A stretch of 14,355 nt of DNA, from contig CAJQOK010000489.1 in the NCBI GenBank assembly GCA_905479905.1, positions 1-14,355 on the forward strand. The letters are read 5' to 3'. Under the pieces are notes generated by a model, which was given only the letters and a program-made list of their open reading frames with translations, was not told where the DNA came from and did no database searches. Both the position numbers and the translations under genes were made by a program. Shown here piece by piece: positions 1-8,137 of this stretch. The stretch comes from an uncultured Aliterella sp. (GTDB taxonomy: Bacteria > Cyanobacteriota > Cyanobacteriia > Cyanobacteriales > Chroococcidiopsidaceae). Each line of letters begins with the position of its first letter. Position 1 is the stretch's first letter.

Positions 1-39
1 TTTTACTTAACAAGTACCGACGGAATTACAGAGGTAAAA

Positions 40-786
40 GTGACAAACATTAATAACAGTGAAGAATCGAGCCTAATTGATGTAGCGGTAACTGTTGCAA
101 AATTACCAATTAAAGGTGTGATTTTTGACTTGGATGGAGTGTTAACAGACACTTCTGAGTATCACTACCGAGGTTGGAAACAGTTGGCGGATGAAGAAGG
201 GATTGCTTTTGATCGCCAAGCTAATGAGGCAATGCGCGGTTTGGCAAGGCGTGATTCTTTACTGCATTTACTGGGCGATGTTTCTATTCCTGAAGCTGAC
301 ATTCAAGCAATGATGGCGCGGAAAAATAGCTATTATGAAGCCTTTATTCAAGATTTGAGTCCGGCGGATTTATTGCCTGGAGTATTGCCTTTGTTAGAGG
401 AATTACAAGCAGCAGGGATTAAAATGGCGATCGGATCTTCTAGCAAAAATGCTCATTTAGTAACAAAATTATTGGGGATAGGCGATCGCATTGCCGCTAT
501 TAGTGATGGTTATAGTGTCGATCGCCACAAACCCGCCCCTGATGTGTTTCTTCATGCCGCAATGCAGCTAGGATTAGACCCCTCAGAATGCGTAGTAGTA
601 GAAGATGCGGCGGCGGGTGTTGAAGCTGGTTTAGCGGCGGGAATGTGGGTTGTAGGACTTGGGCCTGTAGAAAGATTTGCCGCCGCCCACGTCATCCGCG
701 ATAGCTTGGCTAACTCCTCTTGGGCTGATTTATTAGCGGCGATTGAAGCAACAAAGATTATTTGCTTACCAATGGTTGTTAGCTAA
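40..786 (+). CDS. pgmB: Beta-phosphoglucomutase (HAD superfamily)
   Basis: Likely interconverts beta-glucose 1-phosphate and glucose 6-phosphate in the cytoplasm, downstream of a disaccharide phosphorylase. HAD motif I is FDLDGVLTD, with nucleophile Asp30 and acid/base Asp32. Motif II is the GSSS stretch near 132-135, motif III is Lys164 in HKPAPD, and motif IV is VVVEDA with Glu188 and Asp189. The cap carries RGLARRDSL (66-74), the beta-phosphoglucomutase signature also present in the Lactococcus enzyme; YHYRGW and LSPADLLPG also match that family. The 248-residue length exceeds the usual ~220 because of a ~24-residue N-terminal extension. The GTG start at 40 has GAGGT four bases upstream. 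However, the frame stays open to base 1, so this could be the C-terminal domain of a longer fusion, for example with a GH65 phosphorylase. It converges on the next gene with 10 bp between stops. The function is well supported, but the start is less certain. Confidence 0.88.
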   Translation: MTNINNSEESSLIDVAVTVAKLPIKGVIFDLDGVLTDTSEYHYRGWKQLADEEGIAFDRQANEAMRGLARRDSLLHLLGDVSIPEADIQAMMARKNSYYEAFIQDLSPADLLPGVLPLLEELQAAGIKMAIGSSSKNAHLVTKLLGIGDRIAAISDGYSVDRHKPAPDVFLHAAMQLGLDPSECVVVEDAAAGVEAGLAAGMWVVGLGPVERFAAAHVIRDSLANSSWADLLAAIEATKIICLPMVVS

Positions 787-796
787 TAAGCTTGAT

Positions 797-2746
797 TTAA
801 TTAGCAATATTACTAGCTAATTCACTAATTGCTAAGGCTAACTTGTGGGGTTCGATGGGTTTAGATAGGTGCATTTGAAAACCATTAGAAATCGCGCGCT
901 GACGGTCTTCATCTCTAGCGTAAGCTGTTAGCGCGATCGCCCCAATTGGTTTTAATCCTTGGCTAATTTCCCAATCTCTAATTTTTTTAATCAACTTATA
1001 ACCGTCTTCGTCAGGCATTCCAATGTCACTAACGATCGCATCTAAATTCCCTTGGGTAACTATTTTCATCGCCGCCATTGCACAATTGGCAGTTATTACT
1101 TTAATGTTGTACTCCTGCAATGCCAAAGTAATAATTTCACGGTTATCGTCTTCATCATCGACTACCAAAACTTGCAACCCCTGAAGCTGAGGTAAGTTAT
1201 CTAAAGGTAAGTAATTAGAGTTAATTTCCTGACTTGTCCGCGCGATTGGGTTTTCTATATTTTCTAATTGCTCACTTATTAAAGGTAGCTCGATTGTAAA
1301 CGTTGATCCTTGTCCTTCCCCTTTACTTTGAGCAAGCAACGTTCCGCCGTGCAGTTCTACTAATTGACGGGCGATCGCAAGCCCCAATCCCAAACCGCCA
1401 TAAGAGCGCGTCATTGAAGCATCAGCTTGACGAAAGCGATCAAATACATGGGGCAGAAATTCGGCACTAATCCCGCAACCTGTATCGATTATCTGAATTT
1501 GAGCGACGGGAGAAATAACCGATAATCGCACTTCAATAGAGCCACCGGAAGGGGTAAACTTAATGGCATTTGATAGCAAATTCCAAATTACTTGTTGAGT
1601 GCGATCGCTATCTGCCGATACCATTCCGATTGTTGGCTCAAAATTGGTCACTATTTGAATTTTTTTTGCTTGCGCTGCTAATAATACTGTTTCAATTGCC
1701 TCTTCAATCGGAACTTTTAATTGAATGGGACGAGCAATTAGCCGAATTGTCCCGCGAATAATTCGGGAAATATCTAGCAAATCCTCAATCATTTGGACTT
1801 GCAACAAAGCATTACGCTCGATAGTTTCTATTGCCCGATCGCGTACCGAATCTGCTAAGACGCGCGTTCGCATGAGCCTAGCCCAGCCTAGAATTGCATT
1901 TAAAGGCGATCGCAGTTCGTGGGACACAATCGCCAAAAATTCGTCCTTCATGCGGCTATTAGCCTCCGCTTGTTCGCGGGCGGCTTGTTCGCGTTGCAAT
2001 AGCTCGGTACGCTCAGTAATATCGGTAAAAACTTGGACTGTACCTGTAACGCCACTTTTACTTAAAATTGGATCAACTTTGACTTCAAACCAGCGTTGAT
2101 TGATTTGGATTTCTTGACTTTGACGACGGGTAGGATCGAGGCGATCGCACAAAAACTCGCACATCGCTTCATTGTCCACATTTTGCCATAATTCGCCGCA
2201 GCTACGACCAATAATTTCTTGAGCCGACTTCCCTAAAATATTTGCCATTGCTTGATTGCAACGGACTATTTTGGCTTGATCGAGTAAGCAAACCCCGTCA
2301 GAAATAGAGTCAAAGGTTATTTGCCATTGCGTCGCCGAACAAATCGCGGTTTCCTCCGCTTGACGCATCCGCAGCAAAGCATTAACTGTAGCAATCAATT
2401 CACGCGATTCTACAGGTTGAGTTAAATAGCCGTCTGCGCCACCTTCTAAAGCTTCGGCTTTATCTTCCATTTGGATAAAACTAGCGGATAAATGCAGCAC
2501 GGGAATTGAGGCTGTGGCGGGATCGTTTTTAATTTTTCGGCACACTTCAAACCCATGAATATCAGGAAGTTTGACATCTAGCACAATTAAGTCTGGCTTA
2601 ATTTCTGCGACTAGCTGCAATGCTTGCGCCCCTGTACTTGCTTCAATAACATTAAATCCTGCCCTTTGAAGCATCCGCGTATGAACGTAACGATTAGCCT
2701 CATCATCGTCTACGTGCAAAATACTTATTGGTTGCTGCTTAGGCAT
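797..2746 (-). CDS. Hybrid sensor kinase REC-PAS-HisKA-HATPase-REC
   Basis: Last gene of the rsb operon, 649 residues, soluble (no membrane segment seen). Domain order: receiver 1 (about 8-125, acceptor Asp57 in IVLDVKLPD), PAS (about 138-245, ending in VFTDITERTELL), a short coiled linker, HisKA with phospho-accepting His276 in SHELRSPLNAILGW, and HATPase with N box Asn393, G1 box DTGCGIS (421-427) and G2 box GGLGLGLA (450-457). Receiver 2 (about 524-645) has Asp574 in IVSDIGMPDEDG and Lys629. Receiver 1 has Gln110 where receivers normally have the conserved lysine (YLTQPVE), whereas receiver 2 keeps it (LSKPIE). No DNA-binding or other output domain is present, so it must act on another protein. 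The start lies 12 bp after the preceding stop with no clear Shine-Dalgarno, which suggests translational coupling. Domain calls are sound; the signal sensed is unknown. Confidence 0.9.
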   Translation of the reverse strand: MPKQQPISILHVDDDEANRYVHTRMLQRAGFNVIEASTGAQALQLVAEIKPDLIVLDVKLPDIHGFEVCRKIKNDPATASIPVLHLSASFIQMEDKAEALEGGADGYLTQPVESRELIATVNALLRMRQAEETAICSATQWQITFDSISDGVCLLDQAKIVRCNQAMANILGKSAQEIIGRSCGELWQNVDNEAMCEFLCDRLDPTRRQSQEIQINQRWFEVKVDPILSKSGVTGTVQVFTDITERTELLQREQAAREQAEANSRMKDEFLAIVSHELRSPLNAILGWARLMRTRVLADSVRDRAIETIERNALLQVQMIEDLLDISRIIRGTIRLIARPIQLKVPIEEAIETVLLAAQAKKIQIVTNFEPTIGMVSADSDRTQQVIWNLLSNAIKFTPSGGSIEVRLSVISPVAQIQIIDTGCGISAEFLPHVFDRFRQADASMTRSYGGLGLGLAIARQLVELHGGTLLAQSKGEGQGSTFTIELPLISEQLENIENPIARTSQEINSNYLPLDNLPQLQGLQVLVVDDEDDNREIITLALQEYNIKVITANCAMAAMKIVTQGNLDAIVSDIGMPDEDGYKLIKKIRDWEISQGLKPIGAIALTAYARDEDRQRAISNGFQMHLSKPIEPHKLALAISELASNIAN

Positions 2747-2758
2747 AGTTGCTTGTGC

Positions 2759-4489
2759 TTATATATTTAAGTGGAGTCCGGCTTTAAGCAATACTTGACG
2801 GATTATTACACTAGCATCAGGGCGATCTAGGTCTTTAGATAATATTGCCACGACCTTAGCATTAATTAGGCGATCGCGTTCTTCTGGTTCTAATTGCTTT
2901 GAAGTATGAATAATTACCGGAATGTGCTGAGTTGTGAGATTAGCTTTTAATTGCTCTAAAACCTCAAATCCGCTTAATCCGGGCATTACTAAGTCTAAAA
3001 AGATTACTTGCGGCTGTTCTAAGATAGCTTTAATTACTCCTTCACTACCATTAATTGCTTCTATCACCTTGATACTGCGACTTTTTAGTAGTTCTTTGAG
3101 CAAATAGCGAGAGATATCCTGATCATCAATTATCAAAACTTTAATCGGCGTTTGTGGCGATGCCTCCTTGACTTCCGCATAAATGCAGGGCAAAGTAACT
3201 GTAAAAATAGAGCCTACTTCTAATTTACTCTCTACAGCGATCGATCCTCCTAGTAACTGCGCTAGTTGGCGGCAAAGTGGCAAACCTAAACCCGTTCCTT
3301 TAAATTGACTTTGCAAGGGGTTTTCAATTTGGACAAATTCTTCAAAAATAAGTTCTAGATCGTTAGGTGCAATGCCAATTCCCGTATCAGCAACAGTAAA
3401 AACTATCGTGCGCTCTTGTTGCAAAGCACTGACACGGATTTCGCCCCTAGGAGTGAATTTTAGAGCATTAGAAATCAAATTTCTTAAAATTTGCGAAACT
3501 TTACCTTCATCAGTATACATCGGCAAGTTTTGGGGTTGAGCAAAAACTAGATTAACCTCTGATTGATTAAGTAGGGGACGTAGTATGCCTTTTAAAGCAT
3601 TAAATAAATCGCTAACTTCAAATTGCTGGGGACGAATAGTTACTTTACCCGCTTCAACTTTGGCTATATCTAATAAATCGTTGACTAATTCCGAAAGCCC
3701 TAGCGCCGAAGTGCGAATAAAATTTACTTGTTTTTCTTGCTCCGAATTTAACTCCCCATCTAGCCGCTCTAAAAGTAGCTGAGAAAGGCTGAGAATTGCA
3801 TTTAAAGGGGTGCGAAATTCGTGACTCATGTTTGATAAAAAACGAGTTTTCATTTCGCTAGCTTTTTGCCAAGACTCCGCGCGATCGTCTAATTCGGCAT
3901 AAAGAGTTACTACACCACGATTTGTATCTTCTAGTTGACTATTTAGACGCGCAAGTTCACTTGATCTGCTTTGCAACTCCTCCATAGTGCGTAAAAGCTC
4001 TTGATTTTGCTGCTGTACTTCTTGGTATAAATTTTCTGGAGTTTTCTGAGCTAATTCTTGAGCAATTTTCTGGAAAATTTCTGGAGTTATCGGTGTTTGT
4101 TTGGGTAAGAATTTGGTTAGCGTTGCCGTAGTTTCATTGGCGACAGATTCAATTACAAACTTATCCATCAGTCGTTTTGCGCCAATAATCCCTAATCCCA
4201 TCCCTGTAGTAGAAGTATAGCGCCCAGCTAAAATTGCCTCCACATCTTTAATTCCCCCACCTTTGTCGCTAACTTTAATAACTAACGCCGCATCTTGAAC
4301 TATAAATTCAACTCTCCCACCATTGCCATACTGAAAGGCATTGCGAGAAATTTCTGATACTGCCGTAGCTATGCGCGTTTGGGATTGCAAGTCAAAACCG
4401 AGTAAACTAGCTATTTGACGCGATCGCCCTCTTGCCAATACTACATCTTGTTCAAAGCGCACCTCCACTGTTAGAAGCCTAATATCCAT
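2759..4489 (-). CDS. RsbT-like ATPase / histidine kinase / receiver fusion
   Basis: A 576-residue soluble protein with two GHKL ATPase domains. Residues 1-130 resemble the RsbT/RsbW switch kinases: N box SEISRNAFQYG with Asn50, KVSDKGGGI with Asp75, and glycine box TTGMGLGIIGAKRLMDKF. A coiled coil follows (about 150-215), then HisKA with His223 in SNMSHEFRTPLNAIL. The second HATPase has Asn341, VADTGIGIA (367-375) and GTGLGLPL (398-405). The C-terminal receiver (about 449-570) has Asp499 in IFLDLVMPG and Lys552 in LSKDLD. It starts 4 bp after the stop of the phosphatase fusion gene, so the two are probably translationally coupled. Known family: sensor kinases with an N-terminal RsbT-like domain encoded next to RsbRST modules. 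Inference: the RsbT-like part docks on the RsbR/RsbS scaffold or competes with RsbT, and the kinase part passes the signal on. The target of the receiver is not visible. Confidence 0.9.
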   Translation of the reverse strand: MDIRLLTVEVRFEQDVVLARGRSRQIASLLGFDLQSQTRIATAVSEISRNAFQYGNGGRVEFIVQDAALVIKVSDKGGGIKDVEAILAGRYTSTTGMGLGIIGAKRLMDKFVIESVANETTATLTKFLPKQTPITPEIFQKIAQELAQKTPENLYQEVQQQNQELLRTMEELQSRSSELARLNSQLEDTNRGVVTLYAELDDRAESWQKASEMKTRFLSNMSHEFRTPLNAILSLSQLLLERLDGELNSEQEKQVNFIRTSALGLSELVNDLLDIAKVEAGKVTIRPQQFEVSDLFNALKGILRPLLNQSEVNLVFAQPQNLPMYTDEGKVSQILRNLISNALKFTPRGEIRVSALQQERTIVFTVADTGIGIAPNDLELIFEEFVQIENPLQSQFKGTGLGLPLCRQLAQLLGGSIAVESKLEVGSIFTVTLPCIYAEVKEASPQTPIKVLIIDDQDISRYLLKELLKSRSIKVIEAINGSEGVIKAILEQPQVIFLDLVMPGLSGFEVLEQLKANLTTQHIPVIIHTSKQLEPEERDRLINAKVVAILSKDLDRPDASVIIRQVLLKAGLHLNI

Positions 4490-4493
4490 AACA

Positions 4494-5489
4494 TTATTGC
4501 CTAACTACTACGACGCTAACATCATCTCGTAGGCGCTTAAAATCTCGATATAATACTCCAGCAATCAAGCTTGGATGCTTGACAATTAAACCGTTATAGC
4601 GATCTATTCTCCACCCCGTAGCCAAGCCATCAGAGCTTAAAACTAACGTTGCACCGGGGGGAAAAGGATAAGTAAATTCTTGTAATTTGTGAATTTGATA
4701 GCCCACAATACCATTGTAAGAAACCATGCTGCGACTTTCAGGGGCGATGATACTTGCGGCAATATTGCCTACCCCCGCAAAAAGGACAGATTGTTGATTA
4801 AAGTCAAGTTGAGCGATCGCTACTGCCGCACCGCGCGTACTTCGCAATACTCTGTGCATCAATTCTAAAATCTCTTTAGGAGAACATTGAGAATTTTCTT
4901 GAGCGACTCTAATCGCCGCAGAAGATGCCTCAAAAGCTAGTTCACCGTGTCCCAACCCATCAGCAACAACTACCAACTGTCGCCCAGTATCGGTTTCAAT
5001 TACTGCCCAAGCGTCGCCGCAAATTTGCTCACTGGCTAAGGGAATATTCACCGCACCGATTTTTAAACTGACTAAATTTTTCGGTGGTGGAGTTGCCCAT
5101 AGGTGCGCCACTACTGCTGTACCTATAGAAGGGATAGAATAAATGTCAAAAAAATCTGCCAACCTAGAAATCGATCCTAAGCCTGTCCCAGGAGTTCCAC
5201 CCGTCGAAAAGCCATCGCGGAGACACTCGCCAACATTCTCCATCCCCGCGCCTTTATCTAAAGCCAAAATTTCTAAGCCGTTAAGATCGCCAATGTGGAG
5301 GGAGCGTAGTAGCAATTCGCCGTCTTGGGCGTGTTTAATTAAATTCCCGGCAATTTCTGTAACAACAATACCCACTCTACCGCGCTCGGTTTCTTTAAAA
5401 TTTAATTGAGAGGCGAAGTCCATAGCCCTGCGGCGCGCTTCTCCAACTTGGCTACTTTCTACCACAGGAATCAGGATATTTTGGATCAT
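4494..5489 (-). CDS. RsbT-like ATPase fused to RsbX-like PP2C phosphatase
   Basis: A 331-residue soluble protein. Residues 1-130 form an anti-sigma/RsbT-type ATPase with N box TEIAGNLIKHA (Asn49), LALDKGAGM (Asp78) and glycine box STGGTPGTGLG (95-105). Residues about 140-331 form a SpoIIE/PP2C-type phosphatase. The metal ligands expected for the family are visible: CGDAW (Asp159), VVADGLGHG (Asp177), SSDGLATG (Asp287) and RDDVSVVVV (Asp322/Asp323). The phosphatase half closely follows Bacillus RsbX in motif order, including ADGLGHGELAFEASSAAI, RGAAVAI and FAGVGNIAASII. RsbX dephosphorylates RsbR and RsbS to reset the stressosome, and that is the likely role here. It lies 26 bp after rsbT and 4 bp before the kinase fusion. 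The upstream Shine-Dalgarno is weak. Kinase and phosphatase activities in one chain could make it a bifunctional switch, which is an inference. Confidence 0.9.
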   Translation of the reverse strand: MIQNILIPVVESSQVGEARRRAMDFASQLNFKETERGRVGIVVTEIAGNLIKHAQDGELLLRSLHIGDLNGLEILALDKGAGMENVGECLRDGFSTGGTPGTGLGSISRLADFFDIYSIPSIGTAVVAHLWATPPPKNLVSLKIGAVNIPLASEQICGDAWAVIETDTGRQLVVVADGLGHGELAFEASSAAIRVAQENSQCSPKEILELMHRVLRSTRGAAVAIAQLDFNQQSVLFAGVGNIAASIIAPESRSMVSYNGIVGYQIHKLQEFTYPFPPGATLVLSSDGLATGWRIDRYNGLIVKHPSLIAGVLYRDFKRLRDDVSVVVVRQ

Positions 5490-5515
5490 TTAGCTATTTC
5501 CCGCTATCCCTGGTT

Positions 5516-5926
5516 TTACTTCCATTTTATAATTTTAACTTGAGTTCCTTCGCCCACACGAGAACTAATCTCAAACTCGCTCATCAACCGTTTTGTGCCG
5601 CTTAAACCCATTCCTAAGCCTCCTCCGGTTGTATAGCCATCTTTGAGCGCCAATTCAATATCGCTAATTCCTGCTCCTCGATCGCTAAAAACTAAGCATA
5701 GACCTTGACGATAGCCGACTTCAATTACTTCTAGCGTTAATGTTCCCCCACCGCCATAAGTTAAGGTATTACGAGCAAGTTCGCTAGAAGCGGTAATAAT
5801 TTTAGTTTGATCTACCAAACTAAAACCTAATTCTATCGCCCAAGTGCGGACAGTTTTTCTGACTAAGACAATATCACTGGAAGAATAAATGTCTATTTCC
5901 TGCTTTTGTCCTTCGGGGGCTGCCAT
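5516..5926 (-). CDS. rsbT: RsbT-type serine/threonine switch kinase
   Basis: A 136-residue single-domain GHKL kinase, close to the ~133 residues of Bacillus RsbT. The N box is SSELARNTLTYGGGG with Asn53, the G1 motif is FSDRGAGISDIE with Asp82, and the glycine box is TTGGGLGMGLSGTKRLM (99-115). All look catalytically intact. In the family, RsbT is held by RsbR-RsbS, phosphorylates their STAS domains under stress, and is then released to activate a downstream partner, RsbU in Bacillus; no RsbU is encoded here. The ATG has a near-perfect Shine-Dalgarno, AAAGGAGG (5937-5930), three bases upstream and overlapping the stop of rsbS. This predicts strong, coupled translation. It is also the simplest of three RsbT-like domains encoded by consecutive genes. 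Confidence 0.95.
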   Translation of the reverse strand: MAAPEGQKQEIDIYSSSDIVLVRKTVRTWAIELGFSLVDQTKIITASSELARNTLTYGGGGTLTLEVIEVGYRQGLCLVFSDRGAGISDIELALKDGYTTGGGLGMGLSGTKRLMSEFEISSRVGEGTQVKIIKWK

Positions 5927-5936
5927 TTGCCTCCTT

Positions 5937-6299
5937 TCAGGTGCGATTTACTAACAAATAAAGCAAATCCATACCTTTTTCGACATTCAAAGCAGTGCGT
6001 ACACCTTCCAGAGATAGCCCAAGTTCTACTAACGTAATTGCTACTGCTGGTTGCATTCCTACTACTACCGTTTCCGCATCAAGTAGGCGCGACATGGAAG
6101 CAATGTTACTGAGTATGCGCCCGATAAATGAGTCCACAATTTCTAAAGATGAAATGTCAATTAATACACATTTTGTATTCAATTCAACGATCAAGTTTGT
6201 CAAATCGTCTTGCAAAGTCATCGCCAAGCGATCGTGCATATCTACTTGGATTGTCACCAAAAGAAACCCGCCCATTTGCAATATAGGTATGCGTTCCAC
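5937..6299 (-). CDS. rsbS: RsbS stressosome STAS scaffold protein
   Basis: A 120-residue STAS protein that matches Bacillus RsbS along its length: ERIPILQMGGFLLVTIQ at the N-terminus, IDISSLEIVDSFIGRIL, GMQPAVAITLVELGLSLEGV and TALNVEKGMDLL. Ser57 in VDSF is the equivalent of the RsbT-phosphorylated Ser59 of Bacillus RsbS. It should form the core of the complex with RsbR and sequester RsbT. I chose the GTG at 6297-6299 because GGAG lies seven bases upstream (6310-6307) and the protein then starts exactly where the family does. An ATG at 6345-6347 would add 16 unrelated residues and overlap rsbR by 32 bp. With the GTG start, the gap to the rsbR stop is 16 bp. Confidence 0.92.
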   Translation of the reverse strand: MERIPILQMGGFLLVTIQVDMHDRLAMTLQDDLTNLIVELNTKCVLIDISSLEIVDSFIGRILSNIASMSRLLDAETVVVGMQPAVAITLVELGLSLEGVRTALNVEKGMDLLYLLVNRT

Positions 6300-6315
6300 C
6301 TTTAGTCTCCAAGGG

Positions 6316-7194
6316 TTACAAACGATTTTGAGGGCGCGGATCGGCAAACGTTACCGCATACCCACTACGTTTTAGAGCAACTTCAAAAGCATCTGCCATT
6401 GTCGCTTTAGTAATTACAGCAGTCAAATCTACACCCAAATGAACAATAGTTTGAGCAATTTGGGGGCGAATACCGCTAATGATGCAGTCTGCACCCATCA
6501 AGCGGGTAGCGGCGACAGTTTTAAGTAAATGCTGGGCAACTAAAGTATCAACTGTTGGTACGCCCGTAATATCAATAATTGCGATCGCGCTTCCCGTTTC
6601 GACTATTCGCTGCAACAAGTTTTCCATTACTACTTGAGTACGAGCGCTGTCAAGAGTGCCAATAAGCGGTAAAGCTAATATCCCCTCCCACAACTTAACA
6701 ACAGGGGTTGATAGTTCCATCATCTCTTGCTGCTGGCGGATAATAATTTCTTCACGGGCTTTTTGAAAAGCCTCCGTTGTCAGCAAACCTAATCTGTCTA
6801 TTAAGTCATTGGCGGTCATAATCTCTGCGGCTATTTCGCCATCGCTTCCGCATTCTTCGCGCAGCAGGCTAAACAAAGGTTTTTTCAAAGAAAAAATAAA
6901 TAAGGCTACTTGAGAAGGGCTAAAGCCTTGTTGGACGCGGCTACGGGTTATGCTAGTTAGCAGAGCTTTGATACTATTCCATTCTGAAGCTTGAAAATTA
7001 GTTAAATTACCATCTTGGCTGGCATCTCGCAGTAAGCGCAGAAATTCTCCAGATTGATCGCGCATTTCTGCTTCACGCATCAAGTCATCGCGCCGGATTC
7101 CCGCCGATAGTTGTTCCTTTAACCATTCACCTAACAGCATAGTTTCATGCTTGGCGAGAATTTCTGGAAGATGGCGATCGCCATTTTTGCTCAT
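6316..7194 (-). CDS. rsbR: RsbR-type stressosome sensor/co-antagonist
   Basis: First gene of the operon, 292 residues. The N-terminal ~150 residues are helical and resemble the RsbRD-type sensory domain (KHETMLLGEWLKEQLSAG, then SLKKPLFSLLREE); the ligand is unknown. A linker helix (about 143-160) leads to a C-terminal STAS domain (about 163-275) with VVKLWEGILALPLIGTLD, AIIDITGVPTVDTLVAQHLL and GIRPQIAQTIVHLGV. Thr217 in VDTLV and Thr249 in IAQTI appear to match the two threonines that RsbT phosphorylates in Bacillus RsbRA (Thr171, Thr205); that alignment is from memory. In the family this protein is the turret subunit that senses stress and binds RsbS and RsbT. The ATG at 7194 has AGGA about six bases upstream. 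A mobile-element-like insertion begins 46 bp upstream of the start and may carry part of the promoter. Confidence 0.93.
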   Translation of the reverse strand: MSKNGDRHLPEILAKHETMLLGEWLKEQLSAGIRRDDLMREAEMRDQSGEFLRLLRDASQDGNLTNFQASEWNSIKALLTSITRSRVQQGFSPSQVALFIFSLKKPLFSLLREECGSDGEIAAEIMTANDLIDRLGLLTTEAFQKAREEIIIRQQQEMMELSTPVVKLWEGILALPLIGTLDSARTQVVMENLLQRIVETGSAIAIIDITGVPTVDTLVAQHLLKTVAATRLMGADCIISGIRPQIAQTIVHLGVDLTAVITKATMADAFEVALKRSGYAVTFADPRPQNRL

Positions 7195-7500: not shown

Positions 7501-7535
7501 TAAAAGTACAAAGACACAAACTTTCGTCTGTGTCT
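7501..7535 (-). terminator. Possible terminator of the oxidoreductase gene
   Basis: The minus strand reads AGACACA, a 10-base spacer and TGTGTCT (7535-7529 with 7518-7512), followed by TTGTAC and TTTT. It begins about 11 bp after the oxidoreductase stop. The stem is short and the T run is interrupted, so this is a weak call. Confidence 0.35.
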
Positions 7536-7546
7536 GTTGCAAACTA

Positions 7547-8137
7547 TCAACTATAACGTTCTTCTGCCCAAGGTTCGCCGCGACTGTTGTAGCCATTGCG
7601 CTCCCAAAAACCTAATTCTTCTTTATCCAAAAACTCTAAGCCATTAATCCATTTAGCGCTTTTCCAGGCATAAATATGTGGAACCACTAGCCGCATTGGG
7701 CCGCCATGTTCGGCGCTTAGAGGTTCGTCAAATACTGTATGGGCAAAAAAGTTTTCTTCCCTCAAGAAGTCAGACATCGCAATATTGGTAGTATAACCGC
7801 CGTAACAGTGTTCCATCACATGAATGGCTTTCGAGTCTACCTCAATCAATTTCATGAACTCAGTAACTTTAATACCTGTCCACTTGACATCAAGCTTAGA
7901 CCAGCGCGTAACGCAGTGAAAATCGGCGGTAAACTGCTGTTGGGGTAAAGCCATAAAGTCAGCCCAGCTAAATGTTACCTCTTTTGCCAAACCCCAAACT
8001 TTAAATTGCCAAGTTTCTATACTAACTTGGGGCGTTTGCCCGTAAGTAAGCACCGGAAACCCCTTAGTTAAGTATTGACCAGGAGGAACGCGATCGCTCT
8101 GTTCCTCATTAGGTTTTTTAAAAAATTTTCCTAGCAT
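7547..8137 (-). CDS. Cytoplasmic sulfite-oxidase-type molybdopterin oxidoreductase
   Basis: A 196-residue protein of the molybdopterin-binding sulfite oxidase/YuiH-like superfamily. It is a single Mo-cofactor domain without the dimerisation or heme domains of full sulfite oxidases. The Mo-binding cysteine is Cys75 in FHCVTRWSKLDVKW. Other family marks are WTGIKVTEFM, EHCYGGYTTNIAM, the substrate-side stretch EHGGPMRLVVPHIYAWKSAKW (near 143-163) and ELGFWERNGY near the end. No Tat or Sec signal is present, so it acts in the cytoplasm, unlike periplasmic MsrP. Substrate and electron partner are unknown. It lies 59 bp downstream of rpmF on the same strand and could be read through from it. There is no obvious Shine-Dalgarno before the ATG at 8137. 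Confidence 0.88.
   Translation of the reverse strand: MLGKFFKKPNEEQSDRVPPGQYLTKGFPVLTYGQTPQVSIETWQFKVWGLAKEVTFSWADFMALPQQQFTADFHCVTRWSKLDVKWTGIKVTEFMKLIEVDSKAIHVMEHCYGGYTTNIAMSDFLREENFFAHTVFDEPLSAEHGGPMRLVVPHIYAWKSAKWINGLEFLDKEELGFWERNGYNSRGEPWAEERYS

Follow-up and report, generated by a model that had tools for sequence, protein, structure and literature searches.

The window analyzed here, a 14,355-nucleotide stretch of DNA from an uncultured Aliterella sp. (contig CAJQOK010000489.1), encodes between positions 797 and 7194 the stressosome proteins RsbR, RsbS and RsbT, a fusion of an RsbT-like domain to a PP2C phosphatase (T'X), and two hybrid histidine kinases, HK1 (gene 5) and HK2 (gene 6). 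Loci with rsbRSTX beside two-component genes have been published, Cyanobacteria among them (Heinz 2022, PMC9237108), so a preliminary description of this DNA was right to call the arrangement not wholly new; what the present locus adds lies on the output side, where the first kinase has an RsbT-like domain of its own. Comparison of related sequences indicates that this domain stays in place across phyla while the effector behind it is swapped between HisKA kinases, HWE kinases and PP2C proteins, and a layout spanning several phyla with exchangeable effectors was beyond the reach of the preliminary description. From these comparisons we propose, at a confidence just short of even, that HK1 is docked on the stressosome through its RsbT-like domain, that HK1 signals to the first receiver of HK2 (REC1), and that T'X resets the shell.

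With a domain of the shell's own client present in the downstream kinase, the question of stressosome output becomes approachable with six proteins, and the locus suggests a direct route by which stressosome shells could signal without the usual sigma-factor pathway. If the proposal is true, the set of interchangeable input domains acting via helical linkers would gain RsbT itself, and stressosomes would be linked to the large histidine-kinase networks of cyanobacteria.

A hybrid kinase with its own RsbT-like domain

All six genes lie on the minus strand in the reading of open reading frames (ORFs), in the places and with the intergenic gaps (16, 10, 26, 4 and 12 bp) that the preliminary description had given. 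The single operon that it claimed is putative, and some relatives have gaps above 200 bp (between longest ORFs). By Pfam, rsbR (6316-7194) encodes an RsbRD_N sensor domain plus STAS, rsbS (5937-6299, with a GTG start) a STAS-only scaffold, and rsbT (5516-5926) a switch Ser/Thr kinase of HATPase_c type with intact N-box, G1 and G2 motifs; T'X (4494-5489) combines HATPase_c_2 and SpoIIE, HK1 (2759-4489) combines HATPase_c_2, HisKA, HATPase_c and REC, and HK2 (797-2746) combines REC, PAS, HisKA, HATPase_c and REC, with His276, Asp57 and Asp574 as its candidate phosphorelay residues.

The first three genes are predicted to encode a minimal stressosome, with RsbR and RsbS as its shell and RsbT as the switch kinase. 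RsbR is related to the RsbR of solved stressosomes (E 1e-33) and RsbS to solved RsbS (E 1e-29). Ser183 and Thr217 of RsbR occupy the positions of Bacillus Thr171 and Thr205, the Ser at the first of these being still phosphorylatable, and both sites are kept in all 16 cyanobacterial RsbR proteins; the phospho-site Ser57 of RsbS lies within a VDSF motif that is present in 15/15 parsed RsbS sequences. RsbT matches SpoIIAB and is a GHKL Ser/Thr kinase with an intact ATP site. With its RsbRD_N domain, the RsbR of the window is not of the globin-coupled type found in the loci of Heinz 2022. A search with RsbR returned one such protein in each of three positive genomes tested, so a single input type is likely in those three.

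In HK1, a full RsbT-like domain (residues 1-130; 4100-4489), itself a match to SpoIIAB, precedes a stalk (residues 154-212; 3854-4030) that bears the motif LEDTNRGVVTLYAELD and is predicted to run as a continuous helix into the DHp domain; Pfam recognizes the HisKA (His223; 3647-3853), HATPase_c (residues 327-434; 3188-3511) and receiver (Asp499; 2816-3139) domains that follow. Since the 50 matches listed by a Foldseek search with full-length HK1 were kinase structures, the N-terminal domain was modelled alone; it shows the fold of the RsbT/SpoIIAB/RsbW group together with the ATP-site motifs. The stalk motif (TN.GV...YAEL and near forms) was confined to gene 5 among the loci compared, where it occurs in 16/16 cyanobacterial loci, in 10 of the 15 plasmid genes with the RsbT-like domain described below and in both Variovorax genes, and it links the RsbT-like domain to kinases and PP2C domains alike. 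HK1's own receiver was considered as an essential output and rejected, because it is missing from 5/16 cyanobacterial HK1 proteins and from several plasmid gene-5 proteins.

The second protein with an RsbT-like domain, T'X, joins it (about 5085-5489) to an RsbX/SpoIIE-type PP2C domain (4500-4988) that contains PP2C motifs and matches SpoIIE and RsbX in the Protein Data Bank (E 5e-14), and is probably a feedback phosphatase. T'X follows rsbT and is followed by two-component genes, which places the locus among RSTX-plus-two-component arrangements; its fused form sets it apart from single-domain RsbX. At one other locus (L064, contig C45 of genome G044), a free RsbT-like protein (5964-6569) stands between rsbT and a separate RsbX-type phosphatase (5395-6426) and forms a sister branch of the T'X domain in the tree, so this arrangement is possibly the unfused ancestral state, in a genome rated 7% contaminated.

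Several characterized systems share parts of this layout. Vibrio vulnificus rsbRSTX-D1-D2 also has a minimal RSTX set followed by a two-component pair, with no sigB, RsbU or RsbR paralogues in the published accounts, in which D1 is said to carry a PAS domain with no RsbU_N detected, RsbX has a single domain, and the D1-D2 pair is thought to act on cyclic di-GMP (c-di-GMP) (PMC9237108; PMC10014275). In the window, by contrast, RsbT-like domains are joined to the RsbX-type domain and stand at the N-terminus of the first kinase. For the Vibrio proteins VvRsbT and VvD1, Heinz et al. report no positive interaction and suggest transient phosphorylation; for most of the loci that they surveyed no downstream RsbU_N was found, and the signalling route is only suggested (PMC9237108). 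RsbT is the binding partner of RsbU_N in Bacillus, and the literature describes histidine kinases with RsbU_N near stressosome genes; those downstream of RSTX in Proteobacteria resemble HK1 in having an RsbT-related input and a helical linker within a stressosome operon, but their input binds RsbT in trans, whereas that of HK1 is itself RsbT-like (PMC9237108; PMC12143880). The Bacillus subtilis rsbRSTUVW-sigB-rsbX operon shares RsbR, RsbS, RsbT and an RsbX-type phosphatase with the window, which has two hybrid kinases instead of RsbU, RsbV, RsbW and SigB. The RsbK/RsbM/RsbY route to SigB in Bacillus cereus likewise places a hybrid kinase in general stress signalling (PMC4574943), in an organism described as lacking the rsbRST genes (PMC3999984) that the window has. 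A literature search, judged by titles, abstracts and listed terms, found neither a fusion of RsbT to a histidine kinase nor effector swapping; the Pane-Farre 2005 and 2017 reviews lay outside its scope, and no priority is claimed.

Distribution and exchange of effectors

When 386 genomes of the Cyanobacteriota were searched, residues 1-212 of HK1 (E<=1e-10) and RsbS (E<=1e-6) matched the same 15 genomes, and an HK1-N-type domain is fused to a histidine kinase in 13 of these; in the two others, the distant G041 and G044 (each with a contamination rating of 7%), the HK1 query matched RsbT only. A Fisher test of this co-occurrence gives 2e-22, a value that ignores kinship and mostly restates operon linkage. 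Queries with RsbS, the HK1 N-terminus and RsbR had no match in the same-genus genome G308 or the family member G005, and the distribution of the module is patchy. Among named records, the closest one found is Chlorogloea sp. CCALA 695, with 95.6% DNA identity over the operon. The source genome itself (3.2 Mb in 593 contigs) is 65% complete, which makes statements of absence about it weak.

The surroundings were read for loci from the matched genomes plus three named ones. Conservation across cyanobacterial genomes, which the preliminary description had put forward as a check, was found: the order R-S-T-T'X-HK1 is kept on one strand in 16/16 cyanobacterial loci amid several different neighbourhoods, which argues for more than chance, although the 16 are not independent (the window, L072 and L073 are close to one another, and one genus contributes five). 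The two G044 loci have, in the gene-5 slot, a kinase with RsbU_N at its start (65.2 and 58.9 bits; cut-off 25.5), and in G041 a kinase upstream of rsbR has a weak RsbU_N score of 19.1 bits, below the same cut-off.

Beyond the phylum, the distribution was sampled in plasmid records and in one genome-contig scan (4 loci), which together are not a census. A tblastn search with the HK1 N-terminus matched 99 of 72,556 plasmid records, and RsbS also matched 99, with Phaeobacter (58) and Deinococcus (17) predominating. Of the 20 plasmid regions examined (L114-L133), 15 have the RsbT-like domain in gene 5, in a sample in which 12 had been chosen by their match to the HK1 N-terminus and L133 by its match to the degenerate Streptomyces form. 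Plasmids with this layout come from Deinococcus, Sphingomonas, Burkholderiales, Rhodobacterales and Actinomycetota. Behind the domain, HisKA effectors are recognized by Pfam in two Deinococcus, Sphingomonas, Paraburkholderia D15, Caballeronia, Embleya and Nonomuraea plasmids, and by similarity and annotation in D. psychrotolerans and P. aromaticivorans; effectors of the HisKA_2/HWE type occur in Salipiger and Phaeobacter (Pfam) and Alloyangia (alignment only), and PP2C effectors in Streptomyces Mg1 (Pfam) and, as annotated, in S. microflavus and S. fungicidicus. Plasmid annotations often name such gene-5 proteins only 'ATP-binding protein'. In addition, a plasmid of the archaeon Halobaculum halophilum (L125) has an R-S-T-T'X locus, after which come genes for a PAS histidine kinase and a HalX response regulator.

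A patchy module that is absent from a same-genus genome and a family member, and that has relatives on plasmids, could be a co-transferred signalling island whose genes are clustered but not functionally coupled. We regard this as very improbable, since the order is kept across several phyla, between different flanks and at protein identities down to about 30-50%.

Proposed docking on the shell and competing explanations

The residues that bear on binding were compared in a single alignment numbered by B. subtilis RsbT, the reference sequence for which was checked by residue numbers; it covers 31 gene-5 domains (16 cyanobacterial and 15 from plasmids), 28 RsbT proteins and 28 T'X domains. In a published model, Arg19, Arg23 and Asn24 of RsbT are buried in the interface with RsbU, and RsbT Asp92 is marked next to RsbU Arg91 (PMC12143880). 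Arg19 is kept in 31/31 gene-5 domains, 28/28 RsbT and 27/28 T'X sequences; the catalytic N-box Asn in 25/31, 28/28 and 28/28; and Asp92 in 1/31, 25/28 and 28/28, respectively. The position of Arg19 aligns with that of Arg20 in SpoIIAB, a residue that contacts SpoIIAA, and it is only from the conservation of Arg19 that binding of a STAS partner by the HK1 domain may be inferred. The six gene-5 domains without the Asn, five from Actinomycetota and one from Caballeronia, are all among the 15 plasmid sequences and all keep the partner-binding Arg19, so the catalytic residue would have been lost at least two times separately if the two lineages are counted as independent. The retention of the domain while catalysis goes points to a binding role. 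Docking draws its main support from this pattern, which is seen in relatives, the HK1 domain of the window itself appearing catalytically intact.

In the proposed mechanism, regulators would dock on the RsbR/RsbS shell through three related RsbT-type domains, those of RsbT, T'X and HK1, of which the last would serve as a docking input in cis. The HK1 domain, like RsbT, would sit on RsbS/RsbR in the resting cell; phosphorylation of RsbS Ser57 and of RsbR by RsbT would then release or reposition HK1, and the change would travel through the helical stalk to the histidine kinase. HK1 would pass its phosphoryl group to the first receiver of HK2, the PAS-kinase-receiver part of HK2 would relay the signal to an unlinked regulator, and T'X, as a second client, would reset the shell. 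Gene content and order, domains, intact sites, distribution, effector swapping and, in some members of the family, loss of the catalytic motifs can be read directly in the sequences, whereas docking, release, the direction of control and the transfer from HK1 to REC1 are inferred. The preliminary interpretation is partly supported as a whole; its suggestion that RsbT or RsbT-like domains pass the signal into a His-Asp relay is supported by comparison, and has become more specific in pointing to HK1's own RsbT-like domain and to REC1 as the probable first target.

The choice of REC1 (2384-2722) follows from a comparison of 19 gene-6 proteins, 8 from plasmids and 11 cyanobacterial HK2. REC1 is the only domain common to all of them, its Asp (Asp57 in the window) is kept in 19/19, and the 8 plasmid copies are each 47-59% identical to that of the window, while the part behind REC1 in these 8 is a kinase (5), a GGDEF domain (1) or a PP2C domain (2). 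Since a constant receiver with exchangeable output has the usual look of a cognate partner, REC1 is the likeliest recipient of the first phosphotransfer from HK1. In Embleya (L120) and Nonomuraea (L121), gene 6 encodes a receiver-PP2C protein, through which the relay may return to partner switching and sigma control.

A number of observations count against docking and relay as proposed. Support for placing the HK1 domain with RsbT is only moderate (81/77), and the Asn kept in 25/31 gene-5 domains, that of the window included, makes a catalytic role possible. The stalk motif is not universal, being absent from HWE-type kinases and from both Paraburkholderia proteins. The plasmid sample is biased, and in the 7 loci chosen on other grounds the domain is present in 2 only (L130, and a doubtful remnant in L129). 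The five plasmid loci without it come from Variovorax (two, in which gene 5 is a stalk plus kinase), Halobaculum (a PAS kinase in the gene-5 place), Streptomyces NBC_01218 (an RST locus without genes 4-6) and Stenotrophomonas (a V-W-SigB set). The RsbU_N loci of G041 and G044 may not belong to the phylum, given the 7% contamination of these genomes. In REC1 the canonical Lys, which is Gln110 in the window, is missing from 19/19 proteins as read from the alignment, so ordinary receiver chemistry is not assured. Lastly, HK2 lies on the same strand in 10 of the 16 cyanobacterial loci, is convergent in 1 and is absent from 5, all of one genus whose HK1 also lacks the receiver, and several gene-5 kinases elsewhere have no gene 6.

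The contrast at Asp92 could also mean that the HK1 domain does not dock but is the receptor for released RsbT, in a GHKL hetero-pair, with free RsbT activating HK1 as it does RsbU. Free RsbT keeps Arg19 and, in 25/28 cases, Asp92 although nearly all of the loci lack RsbU, and gene 5 has almost entirely lost the latter; the RsbU_N kinase in the same slot in G044 would be activated in trans, and the solved relatives SpoIIAB and RsbW dimerize. This is nevertheless unlikely, as Arg19 of the partner-binding helix persists throughout the gene-5 domains counted, those without catalysis included, and Asp92 is also present in all T'X domains, so that it is no mark of effector binding alone. An additional possibility is that the domain acts chiefly as a second Ser/Thr kinase for RsbR/RsbS, with the His-Asp pathway feeding the shell and the stressosome being the output of HK1. 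It would account for the N-box, G1 and G2 residues that are intact in 16/16 cyanobacterial HK1, and T'X would supply the matching phosphatase, but we consider it quite unlikely, given that the six plasmid proteins that keep the domain without catalytic motifs, and the Streptomyces protein that joins this module to PP2C, are more in keeping with an input than with an enzyme.

The output could also lie outside the locus. No recognized rsbU, rsbV, rsbW or sigma gene occurs in the window by ORFs and Pfam (beyond 8137 by ORF reading only), and thus no linked rsbU-rsbV-rsbW-sigB set stands beside rsbRST. The preliminary statement that there is no sigma-factor output is therefore valid at the level of the locus but unproven for the whole cell, as partner-switch genes occur elsewhere in the genome: three STAS-only proteins, two RsbW-like ATPases, a GAF-PP2C and a REC-PP2C protein. 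These are spread over seven separate contigs, for which reason a clustered partner-switch output was rejected. A search of 15 genomes for RsbU_N at E<=0.1 found none in the incomplete source genome and 13 matches in the 12 other fusion-bearing genomes. Among the six matches examined, five are frames of 193-344 residues (L108-L111 and L113) that, from their sequence, we take to be KaiA-like, and the sixth, a 1969-residue frame in G185 (L112), is not; the match in G382, KaiA-like, is barely above the cut-off (25.7 vs 25.5). The C-terminal fold of KaiA is shared with RsbU_N (PMC11372060). With six matches examined and a source genome 65% complete, output through an RsbU encoded elsewhere was provisionally set aside. 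In fusion-bearing genomes with such KaiA-like scores, free RsbT keeps the RsbU-contact residues Arg19 and Arg23.

That the real output is partner switching by these scattered PP2C, STAS-only and RsbW-like proteins, with the kinases acting in parallel and merely co-expressed, gains something from the presence of such genes in the source genome and of SigF genes near rsbRST in Streptomyces microflavus and NBC_01218. We judge it distinctly improbable in view of the dispersal of the genes, the RsbU_N results (five of the six matches examined in relatives being KaiA-like and the G185 one not) and the complete linkage of HK1 and RsbS in the 386-genome sample.

Docking by HK1 can be generalized, with somewhat less assurance than the mechanism itself. 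RsbT-type domains may be a general docking module used three times per operon, by the switch kinase, the reset phosphatase and the output effector, with the clients in competition for shared STAS sites and an output copy that mimics RsbT in cis and can lose catalysis while it keeps docking. Shell, RsbT-like domain, helical linker and effector would then make up a portable unit, present in Cyanobacteria, Deinococcota, Proteobacteria and Actinomycetota, by which a single stress sensor is connected to histidine kinases, to c-di-GMP synthesis or to PP2C/sigma pathways.

Surroundings of the locus

Upstream of the operon, the window encodes a molybdopterin-binding oxidoreductase (7547-8137, minus strand), which is also upstream in L072 and was not seen in the retrieved stretches around other cyanobacterial loci. 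A terminator-like hairpin directly 3' of this gene (7512-7535, minus strand) would separate it from the operon; it is weak evidence, because the region has 4 such sites where shuffles predict 6.8. A promoter scan of the region was uninformative (14 sites, 13.8 expected).

On the other side, positions 1-786 (plus strand) encode the C-terminal 261 residues of a HAD fusion, the HAD part being assigned by Pfam and the remainder presumably GH65-like from its sequence; the contig starts inside this gene, whose product is 97% identical to residues 716-976 of a 976-residue ORF in L072. Compared with L072 (11695-12952), about 1.26 kb with a 352-residue ORF is missing from the window at 786-797, either through a real deletion or as an assembly effect, which leaves the stops of HK2 and the HAD gene 10 bp apart. 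A similar ORF is also present in L073.

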